The notes beneath the pieces are model-generated. The model did no database searches and had not been told where the DNA came from. It worked only from the letters and a program-made list of their open reading frames with translations. A DNA stretch of 64,000 nucleotides from Furfurilactobacillus milii. GTDB taxonomy: Bacteria; Bacillota; Bacilli; Lactobacillales; Lactobacillaceae. The DNA lies in contig NZ_WEZQ01000012.1 of the NCBI RefSeq assembly GCF_009864005.1, positions 62,001 to 126,000 on the forward strand. Reading direction: 5' to 3'. Positions 1,508 to 55,186 of the stretch are shown one piece after another. The position numbers and the translations under genes are program-made. The stretch's first letter is position 1. The number at the start of each line of letters is the position of its first letter.

Positions 1508-1690
1508 ACCTGCGTTCCGTCTGTCAGGGACGCCGTTTCATGGGACCGGGCTTAGCCCCCAGAACGGTCTAAGCCCTCGACTTGAAGCCTCACAAACCCG
1601 AGTCTTCAAGCTCTTCCCGCAATCCTAAGTGGCCCACCCCGCCACCAAGGATTGCCTTCACGAAACTCTGTCCCTGACCGACTCCACTAC
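1508..1690 (-). repeat. Structured element, B arm (composite 1)
   Basis: In the minus-strand sense the outer helix pairs GTCAGGGAC with GTCCCTGAC (1523-1531 with 1670-1678). Inside lie a GTTTC/GAAAC helix, a long hairpin (GCAATCCT/AGGATTGC), a second (CTTGAAG/CTTCAAG) and a third (GGGCTTAG/CTAAGCCC), followed by GGTCCCA. It faces the A arm at 1795 head-to-head. Confidence 0.8.
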
Positions 1691-1794
1691 TGTTACAGTT
1701 GCCCACTTTCAACACATTGTTATAAATGCTCACTACTATTTTAAAAGATAGTGCTGAAATTTCAGCTGTATGTGGATAGAGGCTACACATTAGT

Positions 1795-1982
1795 AGCTGG
1801 AGGGCGGTGGTGGTGAAAACCTGCTGTGAAGGTGTTGTTAGTGCAGCGGTTTGGGCCGGATTTACAACACGGACGCGCTTGAAGACGCGGTTTCCGGCTT
1901 CAAGGCGAGGTGAAAGACTCCGATTTTAAGGAGGCTTGATCCGGTCCCACAGCGGTTTTCACCACCGCCAACCGGAAGCGGA
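1795..1982 (+). repeat. Structured element, A arm (composite 1)
   Basis: It opens AGCTGGAGGGC. The outer helix pairs GGTGGTGAAAACC with GGTTTTCACCACC. The second helix (CTGTG/CACAG) encloses three hairpins: GTGTTGTTA/TTTACAACAC, CTTGAAG/CTTCAAG and a GGTGAAAGACTCC/GGAGGCTT stem. It ends CAACCGGAAGCGG. The element finishes 84 bp before the helD-like start and may be cotranscribed with it. Confidence 0.82.
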
Positions 1983-2066
1983 CTTTTAGATTGAACTATT
2001 TATATTCACATGAGGCCCCAAGGCGTCATGAACAGACTTGTCACTGATCACACGGAGGCTAATTAT

Positions 2067-4373
2067 TTGGATAACGAAGAACGACAGCATGAGCAGCAGC
2101 GTGTAGATCAAGTTATGGACGAGATCAACCGCCAGCTGGTCGACAATCAGCAACAATTTGAACGGGCACACCACGAAACTAGCGCCATTCAGAAAAACTA
2201 TGCTGAAAACGCATCAGTCAACACGTTTGAAGTCGATGATGCGATGGAGACCAACGCGCAGCTGCAACAGCAACGACAATTAGTTTATTTGGCCGTGACC
2301 AACGAAGCGACCATTCGTCAACAACTCGACAATTTAAAACAACTCAAAGAATCACCTTATTTCGGACGCATCGACATTCAGGATGCCGGCGAGTCCAAAC
2401 CAGAATCTTTATACATTGGGACATTCTCACTCACCAACGAAGCTCAGGACTTTGTTGTCTACGACTGGCGGGCACCCATTTCCAGTATCTATTACAACGG
2501 CACACTCGGTATAGTCGCCTACACGACACCCGCTGGCAAACAAACGACGGATTTGAAGAAGAAACGACAATTCACCATTAAAGATGGCCAGATCAAAAAC
2601 ATGTTTGATACCAACGAAACGGTTGGTGACGAAATGTTGCAGGCTGTTTTAGGGCAACAAAACGACGAAGTGATGCAAAACATCGTTGCTACCATTCAGA
2701 AAGAGCAAAACGATATTATTCGTGACACCCGTTCTGATCTATTGGTCGTTCAAGGAGTAGCTGGATCTGGTAAGACCTCGGCCATTCTGCAGCGGATCGC
2801 CTTTTTGCTCTATCACAGCCGTAACGGTGGTGAAAGTGAATTGCAAGCCGATCAAATGATCCTGTTCTCCCCTAACCGTTTGTTCAGTCACTACATTTCA
2901 GAAGTGCTCCCTAGTTTAGGGGAACGAAACATGCGGCAGGTCACGCTGGACGACTTTCTCACCCAACGTTTGCAAGGCCTCAACGTTCAAACGTTATTTG
3001 AGCGCTACGAATCAGACGCTGATGATACCAATCCAATGTTCCGAGATGTCCGTGACTATCTTGAAAGCACCGCGTTTGTTAAAGCTGTCACGGCTTATTG
3101 TAAACATGTTCCGACCCAGGACATTCGTTTTAACGACATCCTCCTTGATGGTTCACTCTTCTTCACCAAGGAAGCGATTGCTGCCATTTATGCAGAACAA
3201 CCCGAGACAATGAGCACGACTGGCAAGATTCTCGCCACTAAAAACAGACTCATTAAAAAGCTCAAACGGCGAATTCGCACAGATGCAAAAGACGACTGGG
3301 TCGCCGAAGAACTCGATAATCTGGACACTGAGCACTATCACGATTTGCTAGGTGAACGGGTTGGCCGATTTAAGGAGCTCGATGATGAAGTCGAGTTTGC
3401 TTCGCGAGAAATCGTTCGTAAGCGTTACGAGCCAGTGTATGACGCATTATTCAATAATTACTTTCTCGATGTTTATCGCCAGTACGATCATTTTCTACAA
3501 ACGGTAACACCCGCAAATGTTGACGCTGATCACTGGGACATGCATGAACAAGATTTCGACACAAACATTGAATATCACCGCATCAGTTTAGATGACGCAG
3601 TGCCACTGCTGTATCTGCGAGATCTTATTACCGGCGGCGGTCAAAATCGTAGTATCGCCTATTTATTCATTGATGAAATGCAAGACTATTCGATGACACA
3701 GATGTGTTACTTCCGTCACGCATTTCCGAAAGCTAAGTTCACCCTTCTCGGGGATAGCGAGCAGGCTTTGTTCAATCGTATGCAGCGACCACAGGAACTA
3801 TTGGACAATCTCGCCCAGGCGTTTAATGCCAAACGGCCAAACTTAATCACATTAAGCAGAAGCTACCGTTCCACGCTACCAATCACTAACTTTGCAAAGG
3901 GATTATTGCCAGATGGTGACCAAATTCAAGCGTTCAATCGTCCCGGCGACTTGCCACGGATTTTATTGCGGTATAATGAACAAGACGCCATCAGTGCCAC
4001 CAAGGAACTGGTGCAAGCGGAACTTGATACGTATGGCACCGTCGCAATTTTAACGAAGGACGTCACCACCGCCCAGCGCGTCTACCGTGAGCTTCACCAT
4101 GACTTTCCCATCACCCTGCTGAATGACATGGACCGCACATTGCCCAAAGGGGTCATTGTACTGCCCGTTTATTTAGCAAAGGGACTCGAGTTCGACTCCG
4201 TCATCGCCTATGATGTGTCGGTCAGCAATTACCCAACTGATGATGCTATTGGAATTCTTTATACGATTGCGTCACGCGCGATGCACCACTTGTCATTAGT
4301 CACCATTGGTGAAGCAAGCCCTGTCATTAGTCACGTTTCTTCTGAACTGATGTCCATTGAACATGAGTTATAA
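2067..4373 (+). CDS. helD: HelD-type UvrD/PcrA-like helicase (RNA polymerase-associated)
   Basis: Superfamily 1 helicase-like ATPase of the HelD family, which in Firmicutes removes stalled RNA polymerase from DNA. Visible motifs are Walker A GVAGSGKT near residue 229, a Walker B-type IDEMQDYS near 534, GDSEQALF near 561, SYRST near 598 and KGLEFDSV near 704. The N-terminal ~70 residues are Q/E-rich and probably coiled coil, as in HelD. The start is chosen as TTG at 2067, because GGAGG at 2054-2058 lies 8 bp upstream; an in-frame ATG at 2010 lacks a good site. The resulting 768 residues fit the family. It stands alone, in plus orientation, directly after a structured repeat. Confidence 0.9.
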   Translation: MDNEERQHEQQRVDQVMDEINRQLVDNQQQFERAHHETSAIQKNYAENASVNTFEVDDAMETNAQLQQQRQLVYLAVTNEATIRQQLDNLKQLKESPYFGRIDIQDAGESKPESLYIGTFSLTNEAQDFVVYDWRAPISSIYYNGTLGIVAYTTPAGKQTTDLKKKRQFTIKDGQIKNMFDTNETVGDEMLQAVLGQQNDEVMQNIVATIQKEQNDIIRDTRSDLLVVQGVAGSGKTSAILQRIAFLLYHSRNGGESELQADQMILFSPNRLFSHYISEVLPSLGERNMRQVTLDDFLTQRLQGLNVQTLFERYESDADDTNPMFRDVRDYLESTAFVKAVTAYCKHVPTQDIRFNDILLDGSLFFTKEAIAAIYAEQPETMSTTGKILATKNRLIKKLKRRIRTDAKDDWVAEELDNLDTEHYHDLLGERVGRFKELDDEVEFASREIVRKRYEPVYDALFNNYFLDVYRQYDHFLQTVTPANVDADHWDMHEQDFDTNIEYHRISLDDAVPLLYLRDLITGGGQNRSIAYLFIDEMQDYSMTQMCYFRHAFPKAKFTLLGDSEQALFNRMQRPQELLDNLAQAFNAKRPNLITLSRSYRSTLPITNFAKGLLPDGDQIQAFNRPGDLPRILLRYNEQDAISATKELVQAELDTYGTVAILTKDVTTAQRVYRELHHDFPITLLNDMDRTLPKGVIVLPVYLAKGLEFDSVIAYDVSVSNYPTDDAIGILYTIASRAMHHLSLVTIGEASPVISHVSSELMSIEHEL

Positions 4374-4422
4374 AATCTTTTTTAACTATTGATGAAATTG
4401 TCGTTCCAGAAAGAGGTCTCCC

Positions 4423-4896
4423 ATGAAATTAGACTTTTCCGTTGCCGTCCATAGCCTGCTTTACTTGGACGAAAGCCGGCCACGTAAAATCACGAGTGCT
4501 GAACTCGCCAAGTCGCTTCAACTGAATCCGGTGATGATCCGTAACATCCTGTCCGTCTTGCATAAGCAAGGGTACATTGAAGGATCCGTGGGAAAAAACG
4601 GTGGTTACCTTCTTCAACGGCCACTTTCTGACATGAATGTTGGTGAATTATACGATCTCACCATTCCGCCGACCATCAGTTATGCCCGTTTTATTACCGG
4701 TGATTCCAAGGGCCTAACCAAAAGCGACACGGATGCGACGGATATTTCAGCAAACATTGGCGAGACCCTCACGGATTTGTTTACCTTGGCGGATACCGAT
4801 TATCGGAAGTTCTACCATCGATTTACCATGACCGATCTAAAGAACGATATGCATGACCATGGTTATTTCATCAATCTAGTTAACAAACAGAATTAA
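4423..4896 (+). CDS. Rrf2-family transcriptional regulator without iron-sulfur cysteines
   Basis: The 157-residue protein has an N-terminal winged helix typical of Rrf2 regulators (SVAVHSLLYL, SAELAKSLQLNPVMIRNILS, KNGGYLLQRP). It contains no cysteine at all, so it cannot bind an Fe-S cluster the way IscR or NsrR does; it resembles the cluster-free YwnA-like branch. The ribosome-binding site is AGAAAGAGG upstream of the ATG. It starts 49 bp after the helicase gene on the same strand and is closed by a clear terminator, so the two may share a transcript. The target genes are unknown. Confidence 0.88.
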   Translation: MKLDFSVAVHSLLYLDESRPRKITSAELAKSLQLNPVMIRNILSVLHKQGYIEGSVGKNGGYLLQRPLSDMNVGELYDLTIPPTISYARFITGDSKGLTKSDTDATDISANIGETLTDLFTLADTDYRKFYHRFTMTDLKNDMHDHGYFINLVNKQN

Positions 4897-4948: not shown

Positions 4949-5029
4949 TATTCATATCAATTTTAGTCCGTTGCGCTGACCTGAAACGCCCGTCCTTGGA
5001 GCCTCAAACGCCGGCAGTACCGCATCGTA

Positions 5030-5208
5030 CTCCGTTACACTGCCTTGAAACGCCGTTCCATGAGGACCGGTCTCAACCCGCTAAAAACGCGGTTTTCTAC
5101 CTCGATTCTGAGCCACAAACCGTCTCAGAAGTCGTCCACCACCACTAAATGGCCAAAACCATACCATTAAGTGGTGTCGACACGGAACTCTATTTCAAGT
5201 CAGCTCCA
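5030..5208 (-). repeat. Structured element, B arm (composite 2)
   Basis: In the minus-strand sense the outer helix is TTGAAA/TTTCAA (5193-5198 with 5045-5050) plus GTTCC/GGAAC. The first hairpin is ACCACTTAATGG with CCATTTAGTGGT. Compared with the B arm at 9205, one C-G pair replaces an A-T pair on both sides of this hairpin, a compensatory change. Confidence 0.8.
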
Positions 5209-5282
5209 CTCACATAACAATCAAAAGTCTTTGCCGGATCGTCACAGATTATTTAGCGCACCTAATCTACAGCTTCTAAGTC

Positions 5283-5392
5283 AGCTGAAGGGCGTCAACA
5301 GTGATACCGAGCCGTGAAAGACTGCGGTCTACAGGCTTGAACCGGTCCCACGGCGAGCGTGTCACTGTTGACAACCGCAAGCAAAATTTTCA
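5283..5392 (+). repeat. Minimal A arm lacking two internal hairpins (composite 2)
   Basis: Only about 110 bp long. The outer helix GTCAACAGTGA (5294-5304) pairs perfectly with TCACTGTTGAC (5362-5372). The GCCGTG/CACGG helix, the third hairpin and the GGTCCCACGG segment remain, but hairpins one and two are absent. The clean loss of two complete helices suggests a modular fold. It ends 13 bp before the antiporter stop codon. Confidence 0.8.
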
Positions 5393-5404: not shown

Positions 5405-6583
5405 TTATTTATCTGATGTGGAAACTGCTGTTGAATCGTCCTTGCTCAACGCCCACCGCAACAACAGTGGGGCGGCCAATGTCGAAAAGACGATTACAAA
5501 AATCATGTCAACGTAAAGTCCGTTTGCTAACAAGTGGGCATCAAAGCCAATCTGTGCTGTGATTAACGCCATTTCACCACGGGCAACCATCCCTGTACCA
5601 ACAACCCGGCTGCCACTTTTTGAGAAGCCCGTTAGCCGCGCACCAATCTCGCCACCCCACCATTTAGTGACAACAGCGAGAATTGTCATCAAGACAATAA
5701 ACGGTAACGACGTAATGAAGTGTGCAAACGTCACGTTCAAACCAATACTAACGAAAAATACTGGTACAAAGAACGCGTTGCTGATTGGTTCAATATGGTC
5801 GTCGATAACCTGTTTAACATGCGTTTGGGCAACGGCAATGCCAGCAAAAAATGCACCAATCGCCCCAGATAAACCAACAACCTCGGCTAAGTAAGCCATT
5901 CCCAAACAGATAACCACAGCCGTTACCGTGCGGGCAGTTGGAATCAGTAGCCGTTCACTAATGCGCATCAGCATCGGCGCAATCCACTTGACGAGCAAGT
6001 ACGCGGCAACAAAGAAACCAACCTGGAACAAGAATTGAAGCCCCATATTAGTGTTGCCGTGTTCACCTGCGCCGCCCCCAATCAGAGCAACCATCAAACT
6101 TAGCAACAGCACACCGATAATATCGTCAGCGACGGCTGCGCCAAGAATAGTCGCCCCGGCACGTGTGTCCAATGCGTGAAATTCACGTAACACCACCACG
6201 GAAATGCTGACCGATGTGGCAGAGAAAACCACACCTATAAACAGCGCCTCCGTAAAGTGATAGCCAAACGCAAGGCTAACGCCACCCATTAAGACAACTG
6301 GCAGGATGACCCCACACACTGCCACCGCCAGCGCTGGACGCAGTACCTTTTTTAACTGGGCAAGATTACTCTCAAGCCCCGCCATAAACATCAGTAAAAT
6401 GACCCCAATATTAGCAAATACAGATAATGCGCTGCTATTATGCACCCAATTCAAAACACCGGGACCAATAATGATCCCGATGAGGAGTTCGCCAATCACG
6501 GCTGGGATCCCAACCCGTGCGGAAAAGTGGCCAGCAATTGTCGTGGCAACAAGTATTAAAATCAGCGTCCCAATAAACGCCAT
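5405..6583 (-). CDS. NapA/KefB-type cation:proton antiporter (CPA2)
   Basis: Integral membrane antiporter of 392 residues with about eleven to twelve hydrophobic segments along its whole length. The family features seen are GIPAVIGELLIGIIIGPGVLNW in the first third, an acidic pair in GAAVADDIIGV and the GTGMVARGEMALI motif near the C-terminus. The ion (Na+ or K+) cannot be read from sequence. The ATG at 6583 has AAAGGAG upstream. It begins 18 bp after the flavoprotein gene and is probably cotranscribed with it. The stop lies 12 bp from a structured repeat. Confidence 0.92.
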   Translation of the reverse strand: MAFIGTLILILVATTIAGHFSARVGIPAVIGELLIGIIIGPGVLNWVHNSSALSVFANIGVILLMFMAGLESNLAQLKKVLRPALAVAVCGVILPVVLMGGVSLAFGYHFTEALFIGVVFSATSVSISVVVLREFHALDTRAGATILGAAVADDIIGVLLLSLMVALIGGGAGEHGNTNMGLQFLFQVGFFVAAYLLVKWIAPMLMRISERLLIPTARTVTAVVICLGMAYLAEVVGLSGAIGAFFAGIAVAQTHVKQVIDDHIEPISNAFFVPVFFVSIGLNVTFAHFITSLPFIVLMTILAVVTKWWGGEIGARLTGFSKSGSRVVGTGMVARGEMALITAQIGFDAHLLANGLYVDMIFVIVFSTLAAPLLLRWALSKDDSTAVSTSDK

Positions 6584-8070: not shown

Positions 8071-8733
8071 TTAGTCGTCCGGATGAACGGCCAAGGTTTT
8101 GTCCAGTTCGCTGACCATGTACTTTTCTTCGGTCGCATCATCCCAGTCTCGCTCCGGAAATAAAATATAGCGATCAAAGAAGTAGCTTCCTAAAATAGAC
8201 AGCAAATAACGGAAAATAATTCGGAACGGCCAGTCGACGAGTTGTCCCCGATCTTGGGCCGCTTTGATAATCGTTTTAAACGAGTTCAAAAAACGTTCTG
8301 GCGCGATCGATAAGTACTGTTTGCGTAGATCTGCGTTGTATAGAATTTCACTGAGGAATACTTTCAATGCATCTTCGTTATCTGAGGCAAACTTCATTCG
8401 ATTGCGAACAAAGAAAACGAAGAAGTCATGGATGTTATCCGTTTGTTCACGAATGGCCTCACTAGCTAATTCGTTTAACAAATCGGGCACGACCTCACGC
8501 ACAATTGGATCCAAGGCCTCGCGTAAAATGTTGGCTTTAGACTTAAAGTGTTTGAACATTGTGCCTTCAGACTGATGCGCTGCCTCAGCAATTTGACGCG
8601 TACTCGTGTTGGCGTAGCCCTGTTTTGCGAATAATTGGATGCTGACGATCAGAACATCCTTTTGTTTCTGCGTTAAATTTTTATTTGCGTTTACTAAATC
8701 AGGAAATTCATCAAGGATTTTTTTATCTGCCAT
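8071..8733 (-). CDS. TetR/AcrR-family transcriptional regulator
   Basis: The 220-residue protein has a TetR HTH near residues 25-72, with QLFAKQGYANTSTRQIAEAA followed by SEGTMFKHFKSKANIL. The variable C-terminal half is the ligand-binding region. The start is ATG at 8733 with GGAAG upstream; an alternative ATG at 8745 is possible, and the longer frame runs into a structured repeat and can be discounted. It lies upstream of the flavoprotein and antiporter on the same strand and plausibly regulates them. Confidence 0.88.
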   Translation of the reverse strand: MADKKILDEFPDLVNANKNLTQKQKDVLIVSIQLFAKQGYANTSTRQIAEAAHQSEGTMFKHFKSKANILREALDPIVREVVPDLLNELASEAIREQTDNIHDFFVFFVRNRMKFASDNEDALKVFLSEILYNADLRKQYLSIAPERFLNSFKTIIKAAQDRGQLVDWPFRIIFRYLLSILGSYFFDRYILFPERDWDDATEEKYMVSELDKTLAVHPDD

Positions 8734-8851
8734 TATTTCTTCCATCACTTTCCCAAATTCACTACTGCTATCATAGCAGACCTCATGAGCTCCGAAAATG
8801 TCATTTTGGCTAGTCAAAGTATTTGCATTCATTGTAAACGGAAATCTGCCA

Positions 8852-9035
8852 CTCCCAGTTGCCCGTTTTTGAAATCGTCTGTGGGACCGGTTCAAGCCCG
8901 CAGTTCACGGTCTTTCGCCTCGTCTGGAAGCCACCTAAACCGTGTCTTCCAGACCGTCCCATGTTGTAAATTCGCAAAACCCACCGAATTAACAACACTA
9001 TCACCGTCGATTTCAACACGGGCGTCCTCCCGCTC
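8852..9035 (-). repeat. Structured element, A arm (composite 3, inverted)
   Basis: In the minus-strand sense the outer helix pairs TTGAAATCG with CGATTTCAA (9008-9016 with 8869-8877). Hairpin one is GTTGTTAATTCG/CGAATTTACAAC. Hairpin two is CTGGAAG/CTTCCAG, a fully compensated variant of CGCAAAG/CTTTGCG seen in other copies. This A arm is on the left and its B partner on the right, opposite to the other composites. Confidence 0.8.
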
Positions 9036-9204
9036 ATATCTCAAAAACGTCGGACAACCGTTGCATTACGTGGCTGAACCATACAAAATTTAAAACCATG
9101 ACATTCGAGGCTTAATTGCTAAGAAAAAAGTTCACAAATGATGTGAGTAATTTGCAACATTGTTCCGTTATTTTCTGAACATACCCAAGCACAAAAAACA
9201 TATC

Positions 9205-9388
9205 TAGTGGAGGCGGTAAGAGACAGAGTTCCGTGTCGACAACACTTAATGGCATGGAGTTGGCCATTTAGTGTTGTGGGACGACTTCTGAGACGATTTG
9301 TGGCTCAGAATCGAGGTCGAAAACCGCGTTCTTTGCGGGTTGAGACCAGTCCCCACGGAACGTCGTCTCTTACCGGCGCAACGGTCTT
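9205..9388 (+). repeat. Structured element, B arm (composite 3, inverted)
   Basis: The outer helix GGTAAGAGAC (9215-9224) pairs with GTCTCTTACC (9365-9374). GTTCCGTG pairs with CACGGAAC. The first hairpin is AACACTTAATGG/CCATTTAGTGTT. Sequence similarity to the B arms at 5030 and 54745 is extensive across the hairpins, while the outer helix differs in sequence but stays paired. Confidence 0.8.
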
Positions 9389-14024: not shown

Positions 14025-14278
14025 AAAAAAGTCCCCCGTCACTGGCTAACATTAGCCAAGTTGACAAGGGACGAATTTATTCCGCGGTACCACCCAAGTT
14101 ATTGCATCACTGCAACCACTCTTCACCGGTATCGGGGTGCGCCGAGATAACGATCACAAACGCTGTACTTCGCGTATTCAATATCACCGGTTCACACGAC
14201 CACCGGCTCTCTGGGGAGGGATTGAAGACGCTACTTGGTTGTCAGTTTCGACACTAGCGACCACGTTTTCGTTATCAA
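14025..14278 (-). promoter_or_regulatory. Tyr T-box riboswitch leader of tyrS
   Basis: GGGTGGTACCGCGG reads on the minus strand at 14081-14095. The stem I base pairs GATAACGA with TCGTTATC. The apical AGAGAG motif is present. The specifier context GCGAAG-UAC-AGC places a Tyr codon at 14165-14167. The terminator hairpin GTCCC...GGGAC spans 14031-14072 and is followed by a T-run. Confidence 0.95.
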
Positions 14279-14347: not shown

Positions 14348-14548
14348 TTGCTGATGCTTCCGCTTCTGGTTGCTGATATTGAAACTCCGTTGTGGGGACC
14401 GGTCTTAGCCCGCGTTGCGGTCTTCGACCTCGACTTGAAGCCTCACAACCCGAGTCTCCAAGCTCGTCCGTGGCCTAAACCCAGCAAACCCACTGGGTTA
14501 ATGCCACTTTCACAACTCCGCTTCAATATCAGCGCCCGCCAGCTACAC
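14348..14548 (-). repeat. Structured element, B arm (composite 4)
   Basis: The outer helix pairs CTGATATTGAA (14373-14383) with TTCAATATCAG (14522-14532), 11 perfect pairs unlike any other copy. Inside are GTGGC...CCCAG with CTGGG...GCCAC, then CTTGGAGAC/GCCTCAAG-like and GGTCTTAGCC stems. The 3' end in the minus sense carries AACCAGAAGCGG, like the A-arm ends. Confidence 0.78.
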
Positions 14549-14686
14549 CTCTCCGAAAACTAACATAATCTGACAAATCAAGTAGCGTTCCACATCACTT
14601 GATCCACAAACGTCACCGTAAATAATTCGAAATTTAAATAGAGACTGACGCCCGCTTACGCTGCACTTTAGCAATGAACTAAACAG

Positions 14687-14880
14687 AGCTGCAGGGCGTC
14701 AGCATTGGAACCAAGCCATGAAAATGTTGTTGATTCGGTGGTTTGCCGAATTTACAACATGGACGGTCACAAAGACTCGCGGTCCTCACGAGGCTTTGCG
14801 ACGAGGTTAAAGTCTCCGAACCTAGGAGGCTTGAACCGGTCCCACGGCGGCGTTCCAATGCTGACAACCGTAAGCGGCAG
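14687..14880 (+). repeat. Structured element, A arm (composite 4)
   Basis: The outer helix GTCAGCATTGGAA (14698-14710) pairs with TTCCAATGCTGAC (14853-14865). Hairpin one is ATGTTGTTGATTCGG/CCGAATTTACAACAT. It opens GAGCTGCAGGGC and ends AACCGTAAGCGGC, 6 bp from the next gene's stop. A reversed terminal motif (CTGACGCCCGCTTACG) occurs at 14645-14660. Confidence 0.83.
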
Positions 14881-18100: not shown

Positions 18101-21100
18101 CTAGTGTTTTAATGAATCGTGCTTACGACGAAGACCAAACCAGCCGATCAACGTTGTTAAGCCAAGAAGGCCTAACAGCGCTTCAAGTTCACTTGCTTCG
18201 TTGGTGTCCGGTAAGTGCCGGCCAACATACTGTGGATCAACAGGTGATGAGGCCTGGTTACCATTAGTCAGCTGACCATTGTAACCACGTGCACCGTTGA
18301 CTCCGGTTGTAGCCACACGAGTACCAGTCGTTGATGACTGACCATTACTCATTTCACCGTTAGCCGACAATGGGTCGTTGCCCAAACCACCGTTGACAGA
18401 CGAGGAACTGCCCGCTGCAGCTGGGTCTGAACTACTATTATTCCCGGTTGGGTCACCAGCCGTCTTCGGGGGCAGTAACGCCTTTAGCTGAGCTTCAATG
18501 TCAGCGGCCTGAGCAGCCAAGCTGTCCGCAAACTCGCGTAACTTATTTGCCTGATCCAACGCCTGACTAGCAGCATCAGAATACTTCTTAGCGAGAGTTG
18601 GGTCATTTGCTGCCAATGCTTGTTTGGCAAGTTCTTCATCCTCAGCAGCTTGTTTGGCCAATGAATCAGCTGCACTAGCAGCACTATTAGCCTGGTTAAC
18701 TAAGGATTGGGCTTTGTTTTCAAGTGATGACTGCCCCTGACTGTGTGCCTGGTTGGCCAAACTTGCTAACCGTTCAGCATCGCTTTGAGCAGCAGAAGCT
18801 TCACTAGCGGCCTTTGACGCGGCGGAAGCGGCCTCACTGGCTGCAACACTTGCATCATGGTGGTACTTATTAACCGCTTTGTTAATATCTTCAAACGTTG
18901 CATCAATCCGACTTCTGAACTGAGCCGCAGCAGCACTCAAGCCAGCAAGTACTGATTGTGCACTTTGAGCTTCTGAAGCAAACTGACTGGCCGTCTTCGG
19001 ATCATTCAGTTTGGCAGCGCTCAACGCACTGGACTCAGCAGCACTAGCCAACAAGTTTTCAGAAGCAGCGGCCGATTCGGTACTGTTCAACTGGCTCATC
19101 AATGAGTTAGCTTCACTAGCAAGTGATTGAACGGTGCTATTTTGTTGATCCGTTGCAGCTTGACTAGCGGCCACTGTAGCACTTTGCTGAGTCGACTGCG
19201 TTGCGCTGGTAACCGCACTCTTAGCCTGATCAGCGGACGTAGCAGCACTGGTAGCAGTACTACCGTATGAACTAGCAGCTGCGGAATCGATGCTAACGGC
19301 CTTATTGATGGCGGAATTCAATTGGTTAACTTGCCCCAACAAAGTGTTTGCAGAAGCTGTCGCATTAGCAGCCACTTTTTCAGCACTTTCGGCCGAAGCC
19401 TTGTCAGATGCTGCAGTAACACTGTCGTTTGTTGTTGCTGCTGTTGAAGCAGCATCTGCATAGCTCTTAGCAACTGAGGCAGCAGATAATGCAGTGGAGT
19501 TCTGAGCACTTAATGCCGCCAATGAACCTTGGTTCTGCTTATCCATTGACTGAACTGCACTGTTCGTCAAATCTGTTTTAGCAGCGCTTGTTGCACTAGT
19601 AGCAGCGTTACTTGCACTCGTCGTTGACGAATTCGTAGCACTCGCATTGGAGTTAGCTGTGGAAGCAGCAGCGCTGGCGCTGGCGGCGGCTTCAGAGGCA
19701 GCAAGTGAATCAGCCTTCACTTGCTTATCAATTGCGGTATTTTGATAAGCAATACTCTTGGCAAATTCAGTTGCTGAAGTAGCTGCATTGGTGGCCGCTT
19801 TCTGGGCCGATATTGCGGAATCTCGATCAGCAATTGCAGTTGCACTATCATTTGTTTTCGCCGCTTTATCCGCCGCACTAGCATAGCTTTGAGCAATGGA
19901 ATTCTCCTTCTGTGCTGTCGAATTAGCAGCACTCAGACCCTTTGCCCAATCACTATTCTGCGATGCCATGGACTGTACCGCAGCATTACTCAAATCAGTC
20001 TTGGCAGAACTGGTTGGAGCTGTGCTGGAAGCAGTTGCGGCACCTGTTGCAGCAGTCGCGGCACTTGTTGCAGCGTCGTTTGCACTCTTTGCGGCATTCG
20101 AAGCGGCCTTTGAATCCGCTTCAACCTTGTTAGTAATCGAAGTGTTCAGGTCTGTTAATGAACTCAGTGCATTTTGAGCCGACGTTGCTGCTTCATTTGC
20201 TAGCTTATTAGCTGAAGTAGCATAACTGGCAGCAGTACTGGCTGCTTTAACATCGTTCAATTTAGCTGCATCGGAGGCTGCACTTGCATAACTGTTGGCC
20301 GCGTCTAACGCACTCGACGCATCCGAAGCGGCCTTTGCTGCAGTTGCCGCTTGTGTTGAGGCTGACTTCGCCCAATTTTGAACCGCTGTATCCGATTTAT
20401 CACTATCAGCTGCATTTTGTGCCGACGTATTTTGTCCTTGTGCAGACGTGTTGTCCTTTGCGGCAGAGGTGTTTGCTGTGTCGGCACTCGTCGCCTGACT
20501 TGCCGCTTCTTTCGAGGATTTTGCGGCTGCCTCACTATCAGCTTGAACCGAAGCCGTAAGCTTCTTGAGACCATCGGCAATACTCGAGGCTAAATTTGTT
20601 ACGCTAGTTCCAGCATTGGCCGCTGAAGCTTCCATTTTTGCGGCATCCGAGGCATTCTGGCTTGCCAAACTGACATCGTTATTTGAATCTGCCGCACTCG
20701 CCGCTGTTGAGGCGTAGACAGAAGCTGCAGTCTTCAAGCTCTGCATTGTGGAATTCGCACTGATCAGGGATCCTTGGAGAGACTGCAAACTCTTCATAGC
20801 TTGTTGCACGCTGTCATTTTTTGTATCTGCCGCACCTAAACTGGCCACGCTTGACTTTGCAGCAGAGTCGGCATTCGTGCTGGCCGCAGGGTCGACATTA
20901 TTCGCAACCCCACTCACAACTTTTGACGAACTATCTGCTGATGTTGCAAAGTTAGAAGAAGCGATAGAATCCGTGTGAACAGCGTTTGACAGAAGAGTAT
21001 ACGTATTGGCCGCTTGATCACGATTATTATCTATTTTATTTTGCAATTCGGCCATATTGCTAGCAAGCAGCAGAGCCTGAGTAGCATAACTTTTCGCAGT

Positions 21101-23980
21101 TACAACATCATTACTAAGGGCTGCATTAGATGCAGCAGACAGCAGAGAGTTTGCGGTAGCTTGACCGCTAGTTAAACCACTCTGCATTACTAATGTTGAT
21201 TCCGAATTGGCTTTCAATTTTTTACTGTAGTTCTGAACGTCACTGTTGTTAGTATCAGAAGCAGCCAATGCGATTCCAGAACTAGCATACTTATTTACGC
21301 TATTCACATCAGATGTCGCAGAACTAACCCGCTTACTAATATCGTCAGCAGCAATTTGAGTGGAGGTAACTTGTTGCGACGCCATTGTACTATCAACAAT
21401 CAGGATACTTTGTGCGAGTTCAGCAGCAGAGTTAGCAACCGATTCAGCTTTGTTTGTCTTCGTAAGGAACTCAGCAAACATAGAATTAAGGAGCGTACCA
21501 CCGTCATACCCAAAATAACTAGCTGAAGCAGCATCATTCTCTGCCGCCGCCGAAAGCGCATGATTAATCATATACGGATACGTAGTGTCATACTGATTTT
21601 GAGCAGCAATTTGTTGTGACACTGCACTTGTTTGTGCCGACTTTAATGCCGCCTGTGCGGACATAAAAGCACTATTAGAAGCAAGTGCTGGATCCGCAAC
21701 TTCTGCAGAATTAACTTCTGAAGTATAGGCCTCTATCGCTTTAATCTGGTCACTAACGGTTTTCATTACACCAGATGCATAGTTGTGCGTGTTAACAACC
21801 GAATCAGCCGCCTGACTGGCCGCGGTGCTATCAGAAGTCACAACACTCTTGATGTTTGCATAAGCTGACGTCGTTGCACTAGCTAGGGAATTAGCACTGG
21901 TAGTGTAGCCAGAAGCCAGCGTATTTTCTTTGGCCGCCAAATTTGCATAACTCTTAGCTGCAACTTGATCATACAAATCCGCAGCACTAGCTGCCTGATT
22001 GGCATAGCTTTTTGCAGCTGTGTCTGCATCTTGAGCTTTAGTAACCAAATCATTAGCATCAGTACCATTAGCCTGGGTTGAAGTATTTTTAGCTTGAAGA
22101 TCCTTATTCTTTAAATCGGTTCCGGCAATTGACCCCGCAATCGAAACATTACTCTGCGTTTGTGTGTTTGCATTAGTAACCTTGGGTAATTCAGCAGCTG
22201 CGCTTTGAGCTTCACCAGCTGCACTCTGTGCTGCACTCTGCGCTGCAATGCTGTCCGCTGACAACCATCCCTGAATCTTGTTGAGGCCATTTTTCGCATT
22301 GGCAAGCGCCTGAGCCGTCTTGTCAGCTAAAGAAGTCGCCGTTGAAGCTTCATTAGACGCATCTTCTGCAAATGCCAGTGCTGCATCAGAGCTTAAACCC
22401 AATACTTCTGCCGCAGTTGACGCAATTTTTGCTTTAGCCAATGCAGTCACCGCAGCAGCTGAATCAGTGGTCGCTTCATTTAAATCAGCTTGAATAGAAT
22501 TATTGGCTGATTGTACCGAACCATTTTGCGTATCCTTGCCCGCAGCAGCTGCTGCTTGACCAGCGGTGTCGCTTAATGCAACTTTAGAGGTATTTTGATT
22601 AGCCGTAGCCGTCGATGCTTCCTGTACAAACGATCCGATACTAGCAACCTTTTTATCGTTAGCAACCTGAGTGTTTACTTGAGTATTCAAGTCATTTATT
22701 GTGGAAACTTGGCCCGCAGTTGTGTTTTGCGCCGTTTCGGCAGCAGTCTGTTGCGTTTTAGCATCATCGGCAAAGCCGCTGGCAGCTGCGTTATCACCTG
22801 CCGTCTCAGCTGATGCGGCAGAATTTGCAAAATCCTGTGCAGATTTCAGTGCAATCCCTGCTGTTGCTACAGCATCACTAGCCTTCTTCTGGGCCGTAGC
22901 AGCTGAAGCCAGTAAGTCGGCCACATTAGTTTGCGTTGGATCCGTCGCCGCAGTTGCTTCTAATGTTGCCAATGTATGATTAACGGTCGTCAGATTAGCA
23001 TTGGCACTGGTAGCAGCGTTGTTAGCAGCAGTGACAGCTGCCTGAGCCGCTGCTGTGTATTCACTAGACGGTGCCGCAGTGGTTGCATTAGTCGTCCCTG
23101 TAGCATCGGTAGTCGTCCCAGTAGTGCCATTGGTCGTACCCGTTGTCGCGTCCATACGAACGATTTCAGCAGGTTGGCTAGTAGCGGCCAAAGAAGACTT
23201 GAGTGTATTCAATTCATCATTAGTGATTGCTGCGGCTACACTGACCACCGTCAAACTTTGTGAAGCCGTACTAGTCTGGTCACTGGTTGTAGAAGCCGCC
23301 GGTGTCTGCTTTGTTTCTGTTGAGGCAGCAACAGTTTTGTCAGTCGTGGCAGTGGTTGTTGGGGCTACCGCATTGGTCTTAACGGAAGTTGTCTCCGTTT
23401 GGCTGGCTGAATTGGCCGGTTTAGCGCTAACAGTAGAGCTGGCAGAGGTTGCCGCACTTGTAGCATCACTTAGCGTTGCCCGCGAGCCCAATGTAGCTGG
23501 ATTAATCAGTGTATTCGTCACCGAACCCGGTGTCTGTGCTGGTGCAGAAGCTGGCACAGTCTCACTGCTTGCATCGCTGAGGGTGGCACGAGAAGTCAAT
23601 TCTGAGTCGGTCGTTTTACTCGATTGACTAGCCGTTGTGTCGCTTTTAACTGTCTCAGAAGAAGCAGAGGTAGCAACCGATGTTTGACTACCACTGTGTT
23701 CACTTTGGGCACTTGCTTGACTAGTTGTTTGCGTCTGACTGGTTGCAGTCGAAAGAACCGCGGAGCCAGCAGATGTCGTATTAGTGGCTGACGCAGAACC
23801 GGCTTGTGTTTGAACCGTCGTCGGTGTCTGATCGGCATGCACGTCATCCTGAGTCATTGCCTCGACTAGCCCAAAGGTCAGCAAAGTTAAGCCCGCAAAA
23901 AGCCACTGCTTACCAGCCTTATACATTTTATAATGTTGCTTTTGTGTGTCGGGAATACGACCTAGGCGATTTTCAGTCAT
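18101..23980 (-). CDS. Giant Ala/Ser-rich repetitive cell-wall surface protein
   Basis: A protein of about 1959 residues. The N-terminus has the KxYKxGKxW signal (KMYKAGKQWL) followed by a hydrophobic segment, the type exported by accessory or canonical Sec in streptococci and lactobacilli. Residues ~40-320 are Ser/Thr-rich. From roughly 330 to 1750 the sequence is Ala/Ser/Asn-rich with an approximately 141-residue period. A linker leads to LPDTNE, a hydrophobic segment and RRKH, an LPxTG-like sortase anchor. ATG at 23980 is chosen, 12 bp from GGGAGG; TTG at 23989 is too close. A function in adhesion or aggregation is inferred. No SecA2 or glycosyltransferase genes are in the window. Confidence 0.9.
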   Translation of the reverse strand: MTENRLGRIPDTQKQHYKMYKAGKQWLFAGLTLLTFGLVEAMTQDDVHADQTPTTVQTQAGSASATNTTSAGSAVLSTATSQTQTTSQASAQSEHSGSQTSVATSASSETVKSDTTASQSSKTTDSELTSRATLSDASSETVPASAPAQTPGSVTNTLINPATLGSRATLSDATSAATSASSTVSAKPANSASQTETTSVKTNAVAPTTTATTDKTVAASTETKQTPAASTTSDQTSTASQSLTVVSVAAAITNDELNTLKSSLAATSQPAEIVRMDATTGTTNGTTGTTTDATGTTNATTAAPSSEYTAAAQAAVTAANNAATSANANLTTVNHTLATLEATAATDPTQTNVADLLASAATAQKKASDAVATAGIALKSAQDFANSAASAETAGDNAAASGFADDAKTQQTAAETAQNTTAGQVSTINDLNTQVNTQVANDKKVASIGSFVQEASTATANQNTSKVALSDTAGQAAAAAGKDTQNGSVQSANNSIQADLNEATTDSAAAVTALAKAKIASTAAEVLGLSSDAALAFAEDASNEASTATSLADKTAQALANAKNGLNKIQGWLSADSIAAQSAAQSAAGEAQSAAAELPKVTNANTQTQSNVSIAGSIAGTDLKNKDLQAKNTSTQANGTDANDLVTKAQDADTAAKSYANQAASAADLYDQVAAKSYANLAAKENTLASGYTTSANSLASATTSAYANIKSVVTSDSTAASQAADSVVNTHNYASGVMKTVSDQIKAIEAYTSEVNSAEVADPALASNSAFMSAQAALKSAQTSAVSQQIAAQNQYDTTYPYMINHALSAAAENDAASASYFGYDGGTLLNSMFAEFLTKTNKAESVANSAAELAQSILIVDSTMASQQVTSTQIAADDISKRVSSATSDVNSVNKYASSGIALAASDTNNSDVQNYSKKLKANSESTLVMQSGLTSGQATANSLLSAASNAALSNDVVTAKSYATQALLLASNMAELQNKIDNNRDQAANTYTLLSNAVHTDSIASSNFATSADSSSKVVSGVANNVDPAASTNADSAAKSSVASLGAADTKNDSVQQAMKSLQSLQGSLISANSTMQSLKTAASVYASTAASAADSNNDVSLASQNASDAAKMEASAANAGTSVTNLASSIADGLKKLTASVQADSEAAAKSSKEAASQATSADTANTSAAKDNTSAQGQNTSAQNAADSDKSDTAVQNWAKSASTQAATAAKAASDASSALDAANSYASAASDAAKLNDVKAASTAASYATSANKLANEAATSAQNALSSLTDLNTSITNKVEADSKAASNAAKSANDAATSAATAATGAATASSTAPTSSAKTDLSNAAVQSMASQNSDWAKGLSAANSTAQKENSIAQSYASAADKAAKTNDSATAIADRDSAISAQKAATNAATSATEFAKSIAYQNTAIDKQVKADSLAASEAAASASAAASTANSNASATNSSTTSASNAATSATSAAKTDLTNSAVQSMDKQNQGSLAALSAQNSTALSAASVAKSYADAASTAATTNDSVTAASDKASAESAEKVAANATASANTLLGQVNQLNSAINKAVSIDSAAASSYGSTATSAATSADQAKSAVTSATQSTQQSATVAASQAATDQQNSTVQSLASEANSLMSQLNSTESAAASENLLASAAESSALSAAKLNDPKTASQFASEAQSAQSVLAGLSAAAAQFRSRIDATFEDINKAVNKYHHDASVAASEAASAASKAASEASAAQSDAERLASLANQAHSQGQSSLENKAQSLVNQANSAASAADSLAKQAAEDEELAKQALAANDPTLAKKYSDAASQALDQANKLREFADSLAAQAADIEAQLKALLPPKTAGDPTGNNSSSDPAAAGSSSSVNGGLGNDPLSANGEMSNGQSSTTGTRVATTGVNGARGYNGQLTNGNQASSPVDPQYVGRHLPDTNEASELEALLGLLGLTTLIGWFGLRRKHDSLKH

Positions 23981-24018
23981 TTTTAGCAATAACCTCCCAC
24001 TATCTTTTGACTAAATTA

Positions 24019-33316: not shown

Positions 33317-33508
33317 GAGCTGAAGGGCGTCCGCGTTGAACCCGACTGTGAAAAGGTTGTTAATTCGGTGCTCTATCCGAATTTACAACCGAGGACGGTC
33401 ACTGAGACTCGGGGGTTCACGAGGCTCGGTGACGAGGTGAAAGACCGCGAACTTCGGGCTTGAACCGGTCCCACAGGAGGGTTCAAAAGCGGACAACCGT
33501 AGGCGGAA
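33317..33508 (+). repeat. Structured element, solitary A arm
   Basis: The outer helix pairs GTCCGCGTTGAAC (33329-33341) with GTTCAAAAGCGGAC (33481-33494, two unpaired A). Hairpin two is CACTGAG/CTCGGTG, a different sequence from the usual CGCAAAG/CTTTGCG yet still paired. No B arm is visible upstream. The element begins AGCTGAAGGGC and ends AACCGTAGGCGG. Confidence 0.82.
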
Positions 33509-38304: not shown

Positions 38305-38414
38305 GTGACACCTGCCGTTACGCCGAACTCTGTCTCTGTTCGGCTGCAATCTGTAACATTTAGCTGTTTACTGGTAGCTTACAGAACCAGCTGATGAAGC
38401 TAAAAACTACTATG

Positions 38415-38612
38415 TGAGCTGGAGGGCGTCAACATTGATACCGAGCCGTGAGAGTGGTGTTAATTCGAGAGAACCATTCGAATTTACACCACGGACGGGC
38501 GCAAAGACTCGGCTCCTCACGAGGCTTTGCGGCGAGGTGAGAAACTCCGGCCTTCAGGAGGTTCGAACCGGTCCCACGGCGAGCGTGTCAATGTTGACAA
38601 CCGCAAGCGACA
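38415..38612 (+). repeat. Structured element, solitary A arm upstream of the ABC exporter
   Basis: The outer helix is GTCAACATTGATA with TGTCAATGTTGAC. The second helix is CCGTG/CACGG. Hairpin one is GTGTTAATTCGA/CGAATTTACAC; hairpin two is GCGCAAAG/CTTTGCGGC. It opens TGAGCTGGAGGGC and ends CAACCGCAAGCG. It is plus-strand, 80 bp before the exporter start, and may be in its leader. Confidence 0.83.
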
Positions 38613-44881: not shown

Positions 44882-44985
44882 AATCAAAATTATAGAAATT
44901 CAAAATGCCTGCATTGTCTGAAACACTCGTTGCGGTATCGCCCGAATTAATCGTTATTCCGTTGAATATGAAGTCCCGACTATAT

Positions 44986-45183
44986 TAGCTGGAGGGCGTC
45001 CCCATTGATACCGAACCGTGAAGGTATTGTTAATCCGGAATGCATTTTGCCGGATTTACAATACGGACGGTCGAAAAAACTCGGTTTTCCACGAGGCCTT
45101 GCGACGAGGTGAAAGACTCCGAACTTAGGAGGCTTGAACCGGTCCCACGGCAAGCGAGTCAATGGGGACAACCGCAAGCGGCA
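44986..45183 (+). repeat. Structured element, solitary A arm in the MerR 3' region
   Basis: The outer helix pairs GTCCCCATTGA with TCAATGGGGAC. Hairpin one is GTATTGTTAATCCGG with CCGGATTTACAATAC, compensated relative to other copies at two positions. Hairpin two is partly disrupted (GTCGAAAAAACTCG against CGAGGCCTTGCGAC). It begins TTAGCTGGAGGGC and ends AACCGCAAGCGGC. Confidence 0.82.
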
Positions 45184-45197
45184 TTCACCGCTATCAT

Positions 45198-45641
45198 TTA
45201 TTCTTCGTGATTCAAACTGGCAAGGTAGTTGGCAAAATCTTCGTTGTCACTAATATGCCCATCAACTTTTCCCTGATACCAATCAATCTTGTCAGTTAAA
45301 ATCGTCATACTGTGCTGTAATTCCTCAAACTCCTGAAGGAAACCACGCCGTACATTCTTCAATAACTGCAAACGTTTGGTAATCGTTGCATCCCCTTCAG
45401 CACGCCAAGTCACATACTGTTTTAGCTGTTCGATGGTCATCCCAGTACCCTTCAAATGCAACAGAAACTTAATCCAGTCCGCATCTGCATCCGTATAGTA
45501 ACGTAACCCGTTGTCTGAACGATGTGGTTTGACCAAACCTTCTTTTTCATAATAACGAAGTGTCGGACCTGACAACCCGGTTTTAGCTGCAAATTCACCG
45601 ATTCGATAATGCTTTTCTATTATAGCTGCTTTTATTGTCAT
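45198..45641 (-). CDS. MerR-family transcriptional regulator
   Basis: The 147-residue protein has an N-terminal MerR winged helix (YRIGEFAAKTGLSGPTLRYYEKEGL) and a C-terminal coiled-coil helix. There are no cysteines for metal binding, so it resembles the AdhR/NmlR-like aldehyde or redox group only in shape. ATG at 45641 follows GGAGG. It sits upstream of the CMD-cupin-SDR operon, and the same palindrome occurs at its own promoter. Confidence 0.9.
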   Translation of the reverse strand: MTIKAAIIEKHYRIGEFAAKTGLSGPTLRYYEKEGLVKPHRSDNGLRYYTDADADWIKFLLHLKGTGMTIEQLKQYVTWRAEGDATITKRLQLLKNVRRGFLQEFEELQHSMTILTDKIDWYQGKVDGHISDNEDFANYLASLNHEE

Positions 45642-51851: not shown

Positions 51852-51855
51852 GCTA

Positions 51856-52501: not shown

Positions 52502-52589
52502 GAGCAAAAACCTCCAAATTAATTTCGTTCATTATACCCCACCCGGGATAATGTTTACTAATCAAAAGGTTCCCGTTCATTGAAACCGG

Positions 52590-52811: not shown

Positions 52812-52854
52812 AAAAACGACGGTAACATGCCCGCTGGGGTAATTACCGTCGTTT
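52812..52854 (-). terminator. Terminator at the 3' end of the NUDIX gene
   Basis: AAACGACGGTAA pairs with TTACCGTCGTTT around a GC-rich loop, followed by TTT on the minus strand. The NUDIX stop codon is inside the hairpin. Confidence 0.8.
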
Positions 52855-53367: not shown

Positions 53368-53503
53368 GCAAACATTCCTTTCCAAAACGATTTATAGCCT
53401 GTGATTTTTGCTAAAGTTCTGTAAAATGGGACATAGTCACAATTATTTTACGTCGACAATACCTACATAACCATCACGAATTATCTTTCTAGAGGGAAGT
53501 TTT

Positions 53504-54682
53504 ATGAAATCAGAAACAACTCACCGCATCACCATTCCCACGCAAGTTGCGGAACATTTGAATGTCAAACCAGGTGACAAACTGCAACTGACGCTGCCGG
53601 ATGACGACAACGAACAGGTTACCATTCGTCCGGACAAGCCGGCACGTGAACATCAGATATTACCGATCCGCTGGTTCCTGTTGCCATCCATCTTAGCCAG
53701 TGTCTTATTCTTCGCCTATTTGTCGAATCAGAGGATTAATCAAATCGCCTTGGCAGGCACTAATTCTATTGCGAGCGCCGTTATTATCTTGGGGATCGTT
53801 AGCGGTTCATTATCATTCTTATTTTTCTACTTTAAACAAAAACATGACATCCAGCGATGGTTGACTGGATCACTTTATTGGCGCAGTTTCCCGACCATTT
53901 GGCTATCGTTCATGATTATCCTAACCACCTGTCTGTTAGGTTTCTTCTGGTTTGCCGGCATTTTGTTCAAGGGCGCGACGTTTGATCAATTCACATCGAC
54001 GTTCATGTTCTTCCTATTCATCAGTCTAATTAACTACCTAATGATCCTGTCAGTCTCAGCGCTATCAATAACCATGATTTTCTCCTTATTGGTGTCGGTC
54101 ATTGTCGCTGGTGTGTTGTCGTCAATGATCACCAATAGTAACAAACGGTGGTGGGAGCATAATATCAGCTTTCTGGGCACGGAAAAAGCCGCTTACAGTT
54201 GGCAATTCAACCTGACCTTAATTGTTTCTGCATTGCTGACGGTCGCGTTGGTCGATTTCATTTTTTCCAGTCTGCGCAAGCAATTCGGTAGTAGCAAACG
54301 CATGTTGACACTGCGCATCTTATTAACGTTAACTGCTATTTGTCTGGGCGGTGTCGGTGCGTTTGCTAACAACGGTCGTGGTCTAATGCACGAACTTCAT
54401 GACCAAACGGCTAGTTTCCTAGTCTATTTCATGATCATCACGATCGTCGCTATCCGTTACTTACTACCCAAAGTGACACCAGAGTTTCTGACCCTATCGT
54501 ACATTATCGGCGGCTTGCTAGTGGTGACGACAATTCTCTTTCAACCAGTAGGATATTTGTCCCTCACCGCTTACGAGTTGGTTGCCTTCATCATGTCGTT
54601 TAGCTGGATGTTACTACTACTACAAACATTGCAACGCATGCTGGTTCACGATCAGCGCACATTCACTGTCACAATCGAATAG
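53504..54682 (+). CDS. AbrB-domain membrane protein (DUF998-like)
   Basis: The 392-residue protein begins with a SpoVT/AbrB DNA-binding hairpin (residues ~5-45: HRITIPTQVAEHLNVKPGDKL) and continues with about ten transmembrane helices. The membrane part is DUF998-like. A DNA-binding domain fused to a polytopic membrane protein suggests membrane-linked regulation. AGGGAAG precedes the ATG. Confidence 0.8.
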   Translation: MKSETTHRITIPTQVAEHLNVKPGDKLQLTLPDDDNEQVTIRPDKPAREHQILPIRWFLLPSILASVLFFAYLSNQRINQIALAGTNSIASAVIILGIVSGSLSFLFFYFKQKHDIQRWLTGSLYWRSFPTIWLSFMIILTTCLLGFFWFAGILFKGATFDQFTSTFMFFLFISLINYLMILSVSALSITMIFSLLVSVIVAGVLSSMITNSNKRWWEHNISFLGTEKAAYSWQFNLTLIVSALLTVALVDFIFSSLRKQFGSSKRMLTLRILLTLTAICLGGVGAFANNGRGLMHELHDQTASFLVYFMIITIVAIRYLLPKVTPEFLTLSYIIGGLLVVTTILFQPVGYLSLTAYELVAFIMSFSWMLLLLQTLQRMLVHDQRTFTVTIE

Positions 54683-54684
54683 CT

Positions 54685-54730
54685 AAAGCGCCCGCACAAT
54701 CTTTCTTCAATGATGTGCGGGCGCTTTTTC
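54685..54730 (+). terminator. Terminator after the AbrB-domain gene
   Basis: AAAGCGCCCGCACA pairs with TGTGCGGGCGCTTT, followed by a T-run on the plus strand. Confidence 0.9.
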
Positions 54731-54744
54731 TGTGTAATTCAATT

Positions 54745-54932
54745 AACCGTTTCGTCGGTCAGAGGCGCCGTTCCGTGGGGACCGGTCTCAACCCGCAAAA
54801 ACAGCGGTCTTCAACCTCGATTCAGAGCTGAAAACCACATCTCTGAACTCGTCCCATGCTACTAAATGGCCAACCCCATGCCATTAAGTAGCATCGACAC
54901 TGAACTCCGCCCCTGACCGACTTCACTCATAT
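54745..54932 (-). repeat. Structured element, B arm (composite 5)
   Basis: In the minus-strand sense GGTCAGGGGC pairs with GCCTCTGACC (one G-U). The first hairpin is GCTACTTAATGG/CCATTTAGTAGC, compensated against the other B arms. It faces the A arm 60 bp away. Confidence 0.8.
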
Positions 54933-54993
54933 GACAGAACTTGCGCTGCCGTTACTGTAAGCCGAACAGCATCATTGTGCTTAACTGCAACGG

Positions 54994-55186
54994 TAGCTGA
55001 AGGGCGTCAACATAGGAACCAAGCCGTGAAGGTACTGTTAATTCGTGGTTTTCGAATTTACAGTACGGACGGTCGCAAAGACGCGGGGGCTTTACGCGGC
55101 TTGGCGGCGAGGTGAAAGACGATGGGCTTCCGGCTTGAACCGGTCCCACGGTGGTGTTCCTATGTTGACAACCGTAAGCGACAGTA
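54994..55186 (+). repeat. Structured element, A arm (composite 5)
   Basis: The outer helix GTCAACATAGGAA pairs with TTCCTATGTTGAC. Hairpin one is GTACTGTTAATTCG/CGAATTTACAGTAC, and the ends are AGCTGAAGGGC and AACCGTAAGCG. Its stop-proximal end is 20 bp from the LacI-type gene. Confidence 0.83.

Follow-up and report, generated by a model that had tools for sequence, protein, structure and literature searches.

Paired, branched-fold repeat arms of Furfurilactobacillus milii resemble a MITE-like mobile family and are conserved at shared sites

What is the structured element that recurs thirteen times in one 64,000-nucleotide stretch of the Furfurilactobacillus milii genome (contig NZ_WEZQ01000012.1, positions 62,001 to 126,000; referred to here as the window), and why are its copies kept? 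The original prediction, which was made from the letters of the sequence, described thirteen copies of one family between window positions 1508 and 55186 and proposed a selected RNA fold or a DNA cruciform. All thirteen were found in this study using nhmmer and a covariance model. We consider it probable that they are the arms of a non-autonomous transposon that resembles a miniature inverted-repeat transposable element (MITE), that this element is mobile in origin, that its arms are under purifying selection in Furfurilactobacillus and that they possibly act as an RNA at 3' ends.

The copies fall into two types, nine of type A (about 190 nt) and four of type B (about 182 nt), which have the same architecture and related ends and share little other sequence. 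A covariance model that was built from the nine A copies recovered the four B copies at E-values of 1.3e-19 to 2e-16, and nhmmer, seeded with seven of those A copies, found the six remaining ones, i.e., two A copies (E 3.4e-35 and 3.9e-24) together with the four B copies (E 5e-6 to 8e-4). The A model scored the full-length B copies mostly at 58-98 bits compared to 144-201 bits for the full A copies. An opening and a closing sequence had been thought to be common to all of the copies, which holds exactly or nearly so for part of them. The opening AGCTGNAGGGC is exact in seven of the 13 and has one and two mismatches in two further A copies; alone, at up to two mismatches, it does not exceed chance (38 seen, 33.7 expected, with 24 shuffles reaching 38). 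The closing AACCGNAAGCGG is exact in three copies, has one mismatch in four and two in one, and is above chance (32 seen compared to 14.5 expected, with no shuffle reaching 32). The ends of the B copies are related to the A ends, yet differ from them.

There is little doubt that the fold is real and selected, as had been predicted from compensatory changes. An outer stem is followed by a conserved stem, then by one hairpin and, further in, by a second junction that carries two hairpins, and the sequence of the outer stem varies between copies while its pairing is kept; the three outer-helix pairs that were first quoted sit in arms A2, A7 and B8. Among 86 distinct A arms, 94.4% of the pair cells were standard (82.3% in the shuffles and 35-42% when slid), double changes occurred in 49 of the 62 pairs (662 cells compared to 184 in the shuffles), and the covariation exceeded that of all 500 of the 500 shuffles. 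A set of 56 arms from Furfurilactobacillus and four other genera gave 94.0% standard pairs and 922 double-change cells compared to 256, with 58 of the 62 pairs doubly changed. Such counts are inflated by relatedness among the sequences, and the alignments had been fitted to the model, but the margin is large and the outer stems of the other genera have a wholly different sequence, which is why the fold leaves so little doubt.

Types A and B are the two arms of a single unit, in which the reverse complement of B is followed by a spacer and by A. This is a new finding, and it revises the picture of thirteen elements: one fold family stands, in which two types of arms usually form divergent pairs rather than thirteen independent elements. 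The sense strands of both arms begin at the spacer and run outwards in Furfurilactobacillus, and the nearly complete chromosome G256, which comes from another genus, shows the same arrangement. There, among 150 scored arms, neighbours less than 700 bp apart were divergent in 17 of 20 cases, 13 of which combined a strong with a weak scorer. The scores given below come from the search models R1 and R2, which, like a third model, R3, match their own training sequences by construction and give rough E-values. Unit 1 consists of B1 (1507-1694, minus strand; R1 80 bits, R2 170 bits; core deleted in G002), a spacer (1695-1794) and A1 (1795-1981, plus strand; R1 169 bits), and the whole of it is absent in G001. 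In unit 2, B2 (5026-5215, minus; R1 69 bits, R2 193 bits) and a spacer (5216-5282) are followed by A2 (5283-5384, plus; R1 73 bits), which has hairpins 1 and 2 deleted. Unit 3 is reversed, with A3 (8849-9034, minus; R1 160 bits) overlapping the 5' end of a TTG-started TetR-like open reading frame (ORF, 8071-8895), then a spacer (9035-9205) and B3 (9206-9384, plus; R1 74 bits, R2 202 bits). Two A-type arms make up unit 4, an A-like partner (14360-14544, minus; R1 171 bits) and A4 (14687-14877, plus; R1 200 bits) on either side of a spacer (14545-14686). Unit 8 has B8 (54747-54927, minus; R1 81 bits, R2 195 bits), a spacer (54928-54994) and A8 (54995-55181, plus; R1 191 bits), while A5 (33318-33506, plus; R1 187 bits) and A7 (44987-45181, plus; R1 191 bits) are single. 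Some of the A arms that now stand alone come from units whose B arm was lost. For A6 (38417-38610, plus; R1 198 bits), the B partner is reduced to the ends of its outer stem in the window (38318-38347, minus) and to the outer stem in G004, whereas it is intact in G005 (L055:19394-19574).

Spacers had a median of 88.5 nt (range 52-164) in 48 Furfurilactobacillus pairs, orthologues included, and of 102 nt (range 74-361) in 21 pairs of G256. Here, as in the strand, flank and ortholog counts, the B set is the first 46-52 of 59 alignment rows, the tail being left out because the B model also matches A arms there. The spacers of different Furfurilactobacillus units share at most 13-14 nt and several of those in G256 are related. 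In the main subfamily of G256 the spacers are about 100 nt long and look self-complementary by eye. Two of the G256 spacers (L113:6625-6726 and L123:6329-6430) share 78 nt at 98.7% and differ in the rest, which suggests mosaic exchange between copies.

The arms are kept at their sites. All eight units of the window have orthologous sites in at least two of the genomes G002, G004 and G005. At these shared sites, the arms diverged by 4.95% (G005), 6.3% (G004) and 5.5% (G002), the spacers by 27%, 30% and 14% and the other non-coding flanks by 16%, 11% and 17%, in the same order, while the fourfold-degenerate sites of the window diverged by 18.5%, 28.8% and 23.7%. The lower divergence of the arms than of the spacers and fourfold sites indicates that the arms have been kept by selection after insertion. 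In 102 ortholog pairs (70 A and 32 B, which are not mutually independent), the stems differed by 3.7% in A and 2.7% in B and the loops by 7.5% and 7.3%; for the adjoining 60 nt, the values were 14.1% and 13.5% upstream and 9.8% and 8.0% downstream, where the sequence is partly coding. Arms occasionally lose hairpins, as in A2, of which three orthologues are still full length.

The evidence for mobility comes from G256. A terminal inverted repeat (TIR) of 14 bp, CTAAAGGTTGCAAG, was found there at 39 places with at most one mismatch, compared to none for the reversed control. Among the ten facing TIR combinations listed, the 8-bp flanks agreed at 8 of 8 bases in four and at 7 of 8 in two (best of three offsets), and the six copies with these duplications span 390-749 bp. 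Two G256 units that lie at separate sites share homology over 657 nt, which extends beyond both arms. An arm lay within 3 kb of 19 of 26 TIR loci, where chance at that density would give roughly between one third and one half of the loci; in 12 of the 26, an arm begins 62-84 nt inside the TIR; this search took in 26 of 30 TIR loci, the remaining four being second ends of the same copies. With regard to the features by which MITEs are recognised, G256 shows terminal inverted repeats, target site duplications and short, non-coding sequences in many copies (63 arms in 400 kb, none of the 63 overlapping a called gene by more than 100 nt); a parent transposase with the same TIR, which is inessential to the class, was not found there. 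In Furfurilactobacillus, G001 is without the unit upstream of ORF 2010-4373, presumably a helicase gene, and one unit is without B in two of four genomes. The family therefore looks mobile in origin and MITE-like. The original prediction had named a transposable element as the finding that would speak against it, and this is partly what emerged: TIRs and 8-bp duplications are present in G256, and no named element was matched. The TIR may be similar to the ends of IS6-type elements.

Several observations weigh against this interpretation. The other four of the ten TIR combinations match at 3-6 of the 8 flanking bases; two of them use an end with three mismatches, and one has two perfect TIRs. 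The exact TIR was found in two of 16 genomes of the genus to which G256 belongs, and the copies that carry it are one subfamily. Neither a TIR nor a target duplication was seen in Furfurilactobacillus, where homology ends within about ten bases of the arms, and no duplication was readable at the G001 site that lacks the unit, a gap that could be a deletion rather than an empty site. No transposase or autonomous copy was found, and among the 39 places in G256 no facing TIR pair was 0.9-3 kb apart, so that none could hold a transposase. For the RNA part of the interpretation, the advantage of the outward strand in folding, described below, was also seen with DNA parameters; this comparison kept 46 of 90 A, 31 of 50 B and 55 of 63 G256 arms and omitted pairs of more than 15% G-U. 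Changes between orthologues produced 90 G-U pairs and 77 A-C mismatches in A and 43 and 19 in B, and the G256 arms had 76 and 57; given the near-equal G-U and A-C changes, RNA pairing in A seems to be only weakly selected at present.

A search of related genomes, which had been recommended from the outset, showed that the family is widespread in the Lactobacillaceae. A pattern from the arms matches 31 stretches of named contigs, all from F. milii or F. rossiae, a set that may omit the record of the window itself; records of F. rossiae DSM 15814 are among those with arms. R1 matched nine of 60 genomes, its own included, and none of 23 genomes from other families of the order, while R3 matched 95 of 301 Lactobacillaceae genomes in 14 of 40 genera. 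In a draw over the order, R3 matched 22 of 295 genomes. Nine of these belong to other families, where the best E-values were 1e-13 to 1e-6; the weak matches in other Lactobacillales have a similar fold, and the core hairpin is retained in several. G003, which belongs to the same genus, had no copy in a 70-kb syntenic stretch nor in a whole-genome search, a contrast from which a loss, or a late spread, inside the genus could be dated. As for the vehicle, A7 and unit 8 matched the same five plasmid records and the G026 copy matched two; the copies of G020, G016, G372 and G422 had no plasmid match, and A7 and the G016 copy had none among phages. All 150 scored G256 arms lie on the main contig. 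With so few plasmid records and no phage matches, carriage by plasmids or phages as a general vehicle was rejected, and the family is mainly chromosomal as far as tested. The copy of A7 (window 44900-45260) on mobilizable plasmids of Loigolactobacillus backii and Pediococcus damnosus is 95.6% identical and adjoins cupin, MerR and SMR genes (L052 and L053, around 6001-6206); our guess is that it is a chromosomal segment transferred from a Furfurilactobacillus-like donor.

Copies are dense where they occur, with 40 arms in 464 kb of G000 and the 63 arms of G256 (about 185 nt each) making up about 3% of the DNA sampled. They favour gaps between convergent genes. With genes called by a simple method based on ORFs and hexamers, the occupied gaps in G000 were 13 of 69 convergent, 11 of 251 tandem and three of 68 divergent ones (Fisher p 1.6e-4 for convergent), and in G256 11 of 40, 25 of 204 and two of 38 (p 0.010). 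The 3' end faces a stop codon in 18 of 23 A arms, at 8-125 nt, and in 10 of 17 B arms of G000, and in 38 of 62 arms of G256. Avoidance of promoters by an inserting element would produce the same gap pattern.

The original prediction did not recognise the family, and the window held no Rfam match at gathering; at E up to 1 there were three sub-threshold T-box leaders and two weak matches, none of which overlapped an arm. No description of the family in Lactobacillaceae was found in the literature searched, in which subscription journals are thinly covered. The closest sequence likeness is to SSRC8_2 (RF02616): over two hairpins, 58-66 nt of the elements of G422 and G441 match model positions 145-210 on the sense strand, with best E-values of 1.3e-11 and 2.1e-11 and 36-49 bits compared to a gathering score of 72 bits. 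The whole model was not matched above gathering, the likeness being confined to the core in these distant relatives, and nothing in the window matched it. SSRC8 is a Northern-positive RNA of Streptococcus pyogenes whose sequence was set by circular RACE (rapid amplification of cDNA ends), and, among the homologue rows considered from its description, the other streptococci cover only stretches within 149-247 (PMC3675131), which includes the segment matched by G422 and G441. However, SSRC8 is described as one small RNA (sRNA) and not as a dispersed repeat. A second SSRC8-like core (L169:202-263, plus strand) accompanies that at 1078-1139 within one 2.2-kb stretch of G422, and copies may cluster there too.

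By their behaviour, the nearest kinds may be BOX and EFAR. EFAR elements are about 170 bp long and fold into stem-loops. Those of enterococci are listed among bacterial MITEs (PMC3733652). In family f2 of the order, the R3 matches, at about 165-176 nt, may be EFAR. The BOX, RUP and SPRITE repeats, which were compared by description only, are likewise small, interspersed and MITE-like; one S. pneumoniae genome has 125 BOX, 110 RUP and 30 SPRITE copies, with predicted RNA folds and expression of some BOX copies (PMC3049150). BOX is built as boxA-boxB(n)-boxC, and these repeats are reported to be almost absent from other streptococci (PMC3049150), whereas the present family extends across many genera. 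The REP/REPIN elements that are associated with RAYT are also inverted pairs of folded intergenic arms; here, in contrast, the arms are about 190 nt long, have branched folds and go with 8-bp duplications. The Y1 transposase (PF01797) was found in the carriers G001, G004, G016 and G020 and was not found in the carriers G000, G002, G005 and G019, and these last speak against a RAYT/REPIN identity.

Whether the arms act as RNA or DNA is partly answered by their strands. After k-mer thinning, a better fold for the outward strand than for the complementary one was seen in 50 of 52 A arms, 30 of 30 B arms, 49 of 52 G256 arms and 24 of 31 arms of other genera; for the first three sets together, this was the case in 129 of 134 Furfurilactobacillus and G256 arms. 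An advantage of one strand disfavours the symmetric cruciform, one of the two forms first proposed. Since the DNA parameters gave the same advantage, RNA and single-stranded DNA are not separated by it. Within the stems, the 46 of 90 A arms and 31 of 50 B arms that were kept at below 90% identity held more G-U pairs than A-C mismatches, namely 115 compared to 37 (A) and 60 compared to 13 (B), and 55 compared to 28 and 39 compared to 13 when G-U-rich columns were left out. Shuffling alone already yields an excess (236 to 160 in A and 181 to 132 in B), so the G-U excess beyond composition is about two- to threefold. It is the gene context and the SSRC8 match alone by which RNA is favoured, not proven.

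The course of events that we propose starts from a unit of terminal repeat, reverse complement of B, spacer, A and terminal repeat, which a transposase supplied in trans would have moved. Insertion would have made an 8-bp target duplication, as was seen in G256 and is presumed for Furfurilactobacillus. The predicted fold of the outward single strand has a variable outer stem and a conserved one, then one three-way junction nested within another, with three hairpins in all (two in some genera), and the small sequence similarity of A and B, despite their common fold, would keep the unit from being a long unstable palindrome. The Furfurilactobacillus copies are old and common to several species, with their arms under purifying selection while the spacers drift. 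Finally, the folded strand may act as an RNA at the 3' ends of genes, where it could be a transcript end, a stabiliser or a barrier to antisense read-through; taken alone, this step is a tentative one that we find easier to doubt than to affirm. Mobility and constraint were seen in different genomes, and that they form one story is our inference. A stronger version, in which each arm of this family of mobile origin has been domesticated as a transcribed, folded 3'-end RNA and is kept by selection at its own site, appears somewhat more doubtful still.

The conservation of the arms at shared sites, their 3' ends facing stop codons in G000 and the better fold of the outward strand would also be expected of cis-acting RNA elements of the 3' untranslated regions that never moved, each having been built and kept at its gene. 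Such an origin is improbable given the TIRs and 8-bp duplications of the G256 copies and the homology of whole units at unrelated sites there, and several flanks hold ordinary terminator-like hairpins (judged by eye and uncounted). Slightly less probable is a family of DNA hairpins that is recognised by a protein, either for single-strand transposition as in REPINs or IS200/IS605 or for the organisation of the chromosome. Long inverted repeats and the one-strand preference of DNA folding suit it, as does a count in four stretches of G000, where the A strand runs against the strand that holds most genes in 20 of 23 cases, but the strand asymmetry opposes a symmetric cruciform, 8-bp duplications point to a double-strand process and half of the eight carriers named above yielded no Y1 transposase. 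A role of the replication strand, at which Furfurilactobacillus hinted, was rejected as it was not seen in G256, where there was no such bias (A 40 leading and 42 lagging, B 41 leading and 27 lagging).

The outward direction of both arms from the spacer could further be read as a divergent pair of independently transcribed, trans-acting sRNAs with promoters in the spacer. A weak motif that resembles TACTAT and directly precedes A agrees with this, and the core of a Northern-positive sRNA, SSRC8, is matched by distant copies. We regard it as very unlikely, because neither arm type had a -35 signal upstream (38 of 88 A and 25 of 46 B arms were compared for flanks, promoters and arm ends), and because in two of the three genomes the spacers have diverged at roughly the rate of fourfold sites and their length varies from 52 to 361 nt. 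Promoters in the spacer were accordingly rejected, there being no -35 signal and no conserved spacer in Furfurilactobacillus.

The window has further features beside the arms. The three T-box leaders (RF00230, all below gathering) lie on the minus strand at 14064-14257 (E 2.5e-17), upstream of a gene that is similar to tyrosyl-tRNA synthetase, at 60937-61158 (E 2e-12) and at 1138-1325 (E 8e-7), upstream of ORF 28-1110, a putative tryptophanyl-tRNA synthetase gene. A protein of 1962 amino acids with a KxYKxGKxW signal peptide, encoded on the minus strand at 18101-23989 with internal 21-bp repeats, is possibly a surface adhesin. ORF 53504-54682, on the plus strand, joins a MazE-like domain to a DUF998 domain.

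The combination described here is rarely seen: TIRs and duplications, in G256, go together with a branched fold that has covariation at nearly every pair and with long selection after insertion. Rfam has no entry for the family as such, despite its presence in 95 of the 301 Lactobacillaceae genomes, and the family may account for the finding that SSRC8 recurs in other streptococci by its middle part only. With ready models and many orthologous sites, it offers a means of studying how selfish repeats become regulatory RNA. If the proposed domestication is true, a transposon would have supplied these bacteria with a genome-wide set of RNA devices at gene ends, in dozens to hundreds of copies per genome.

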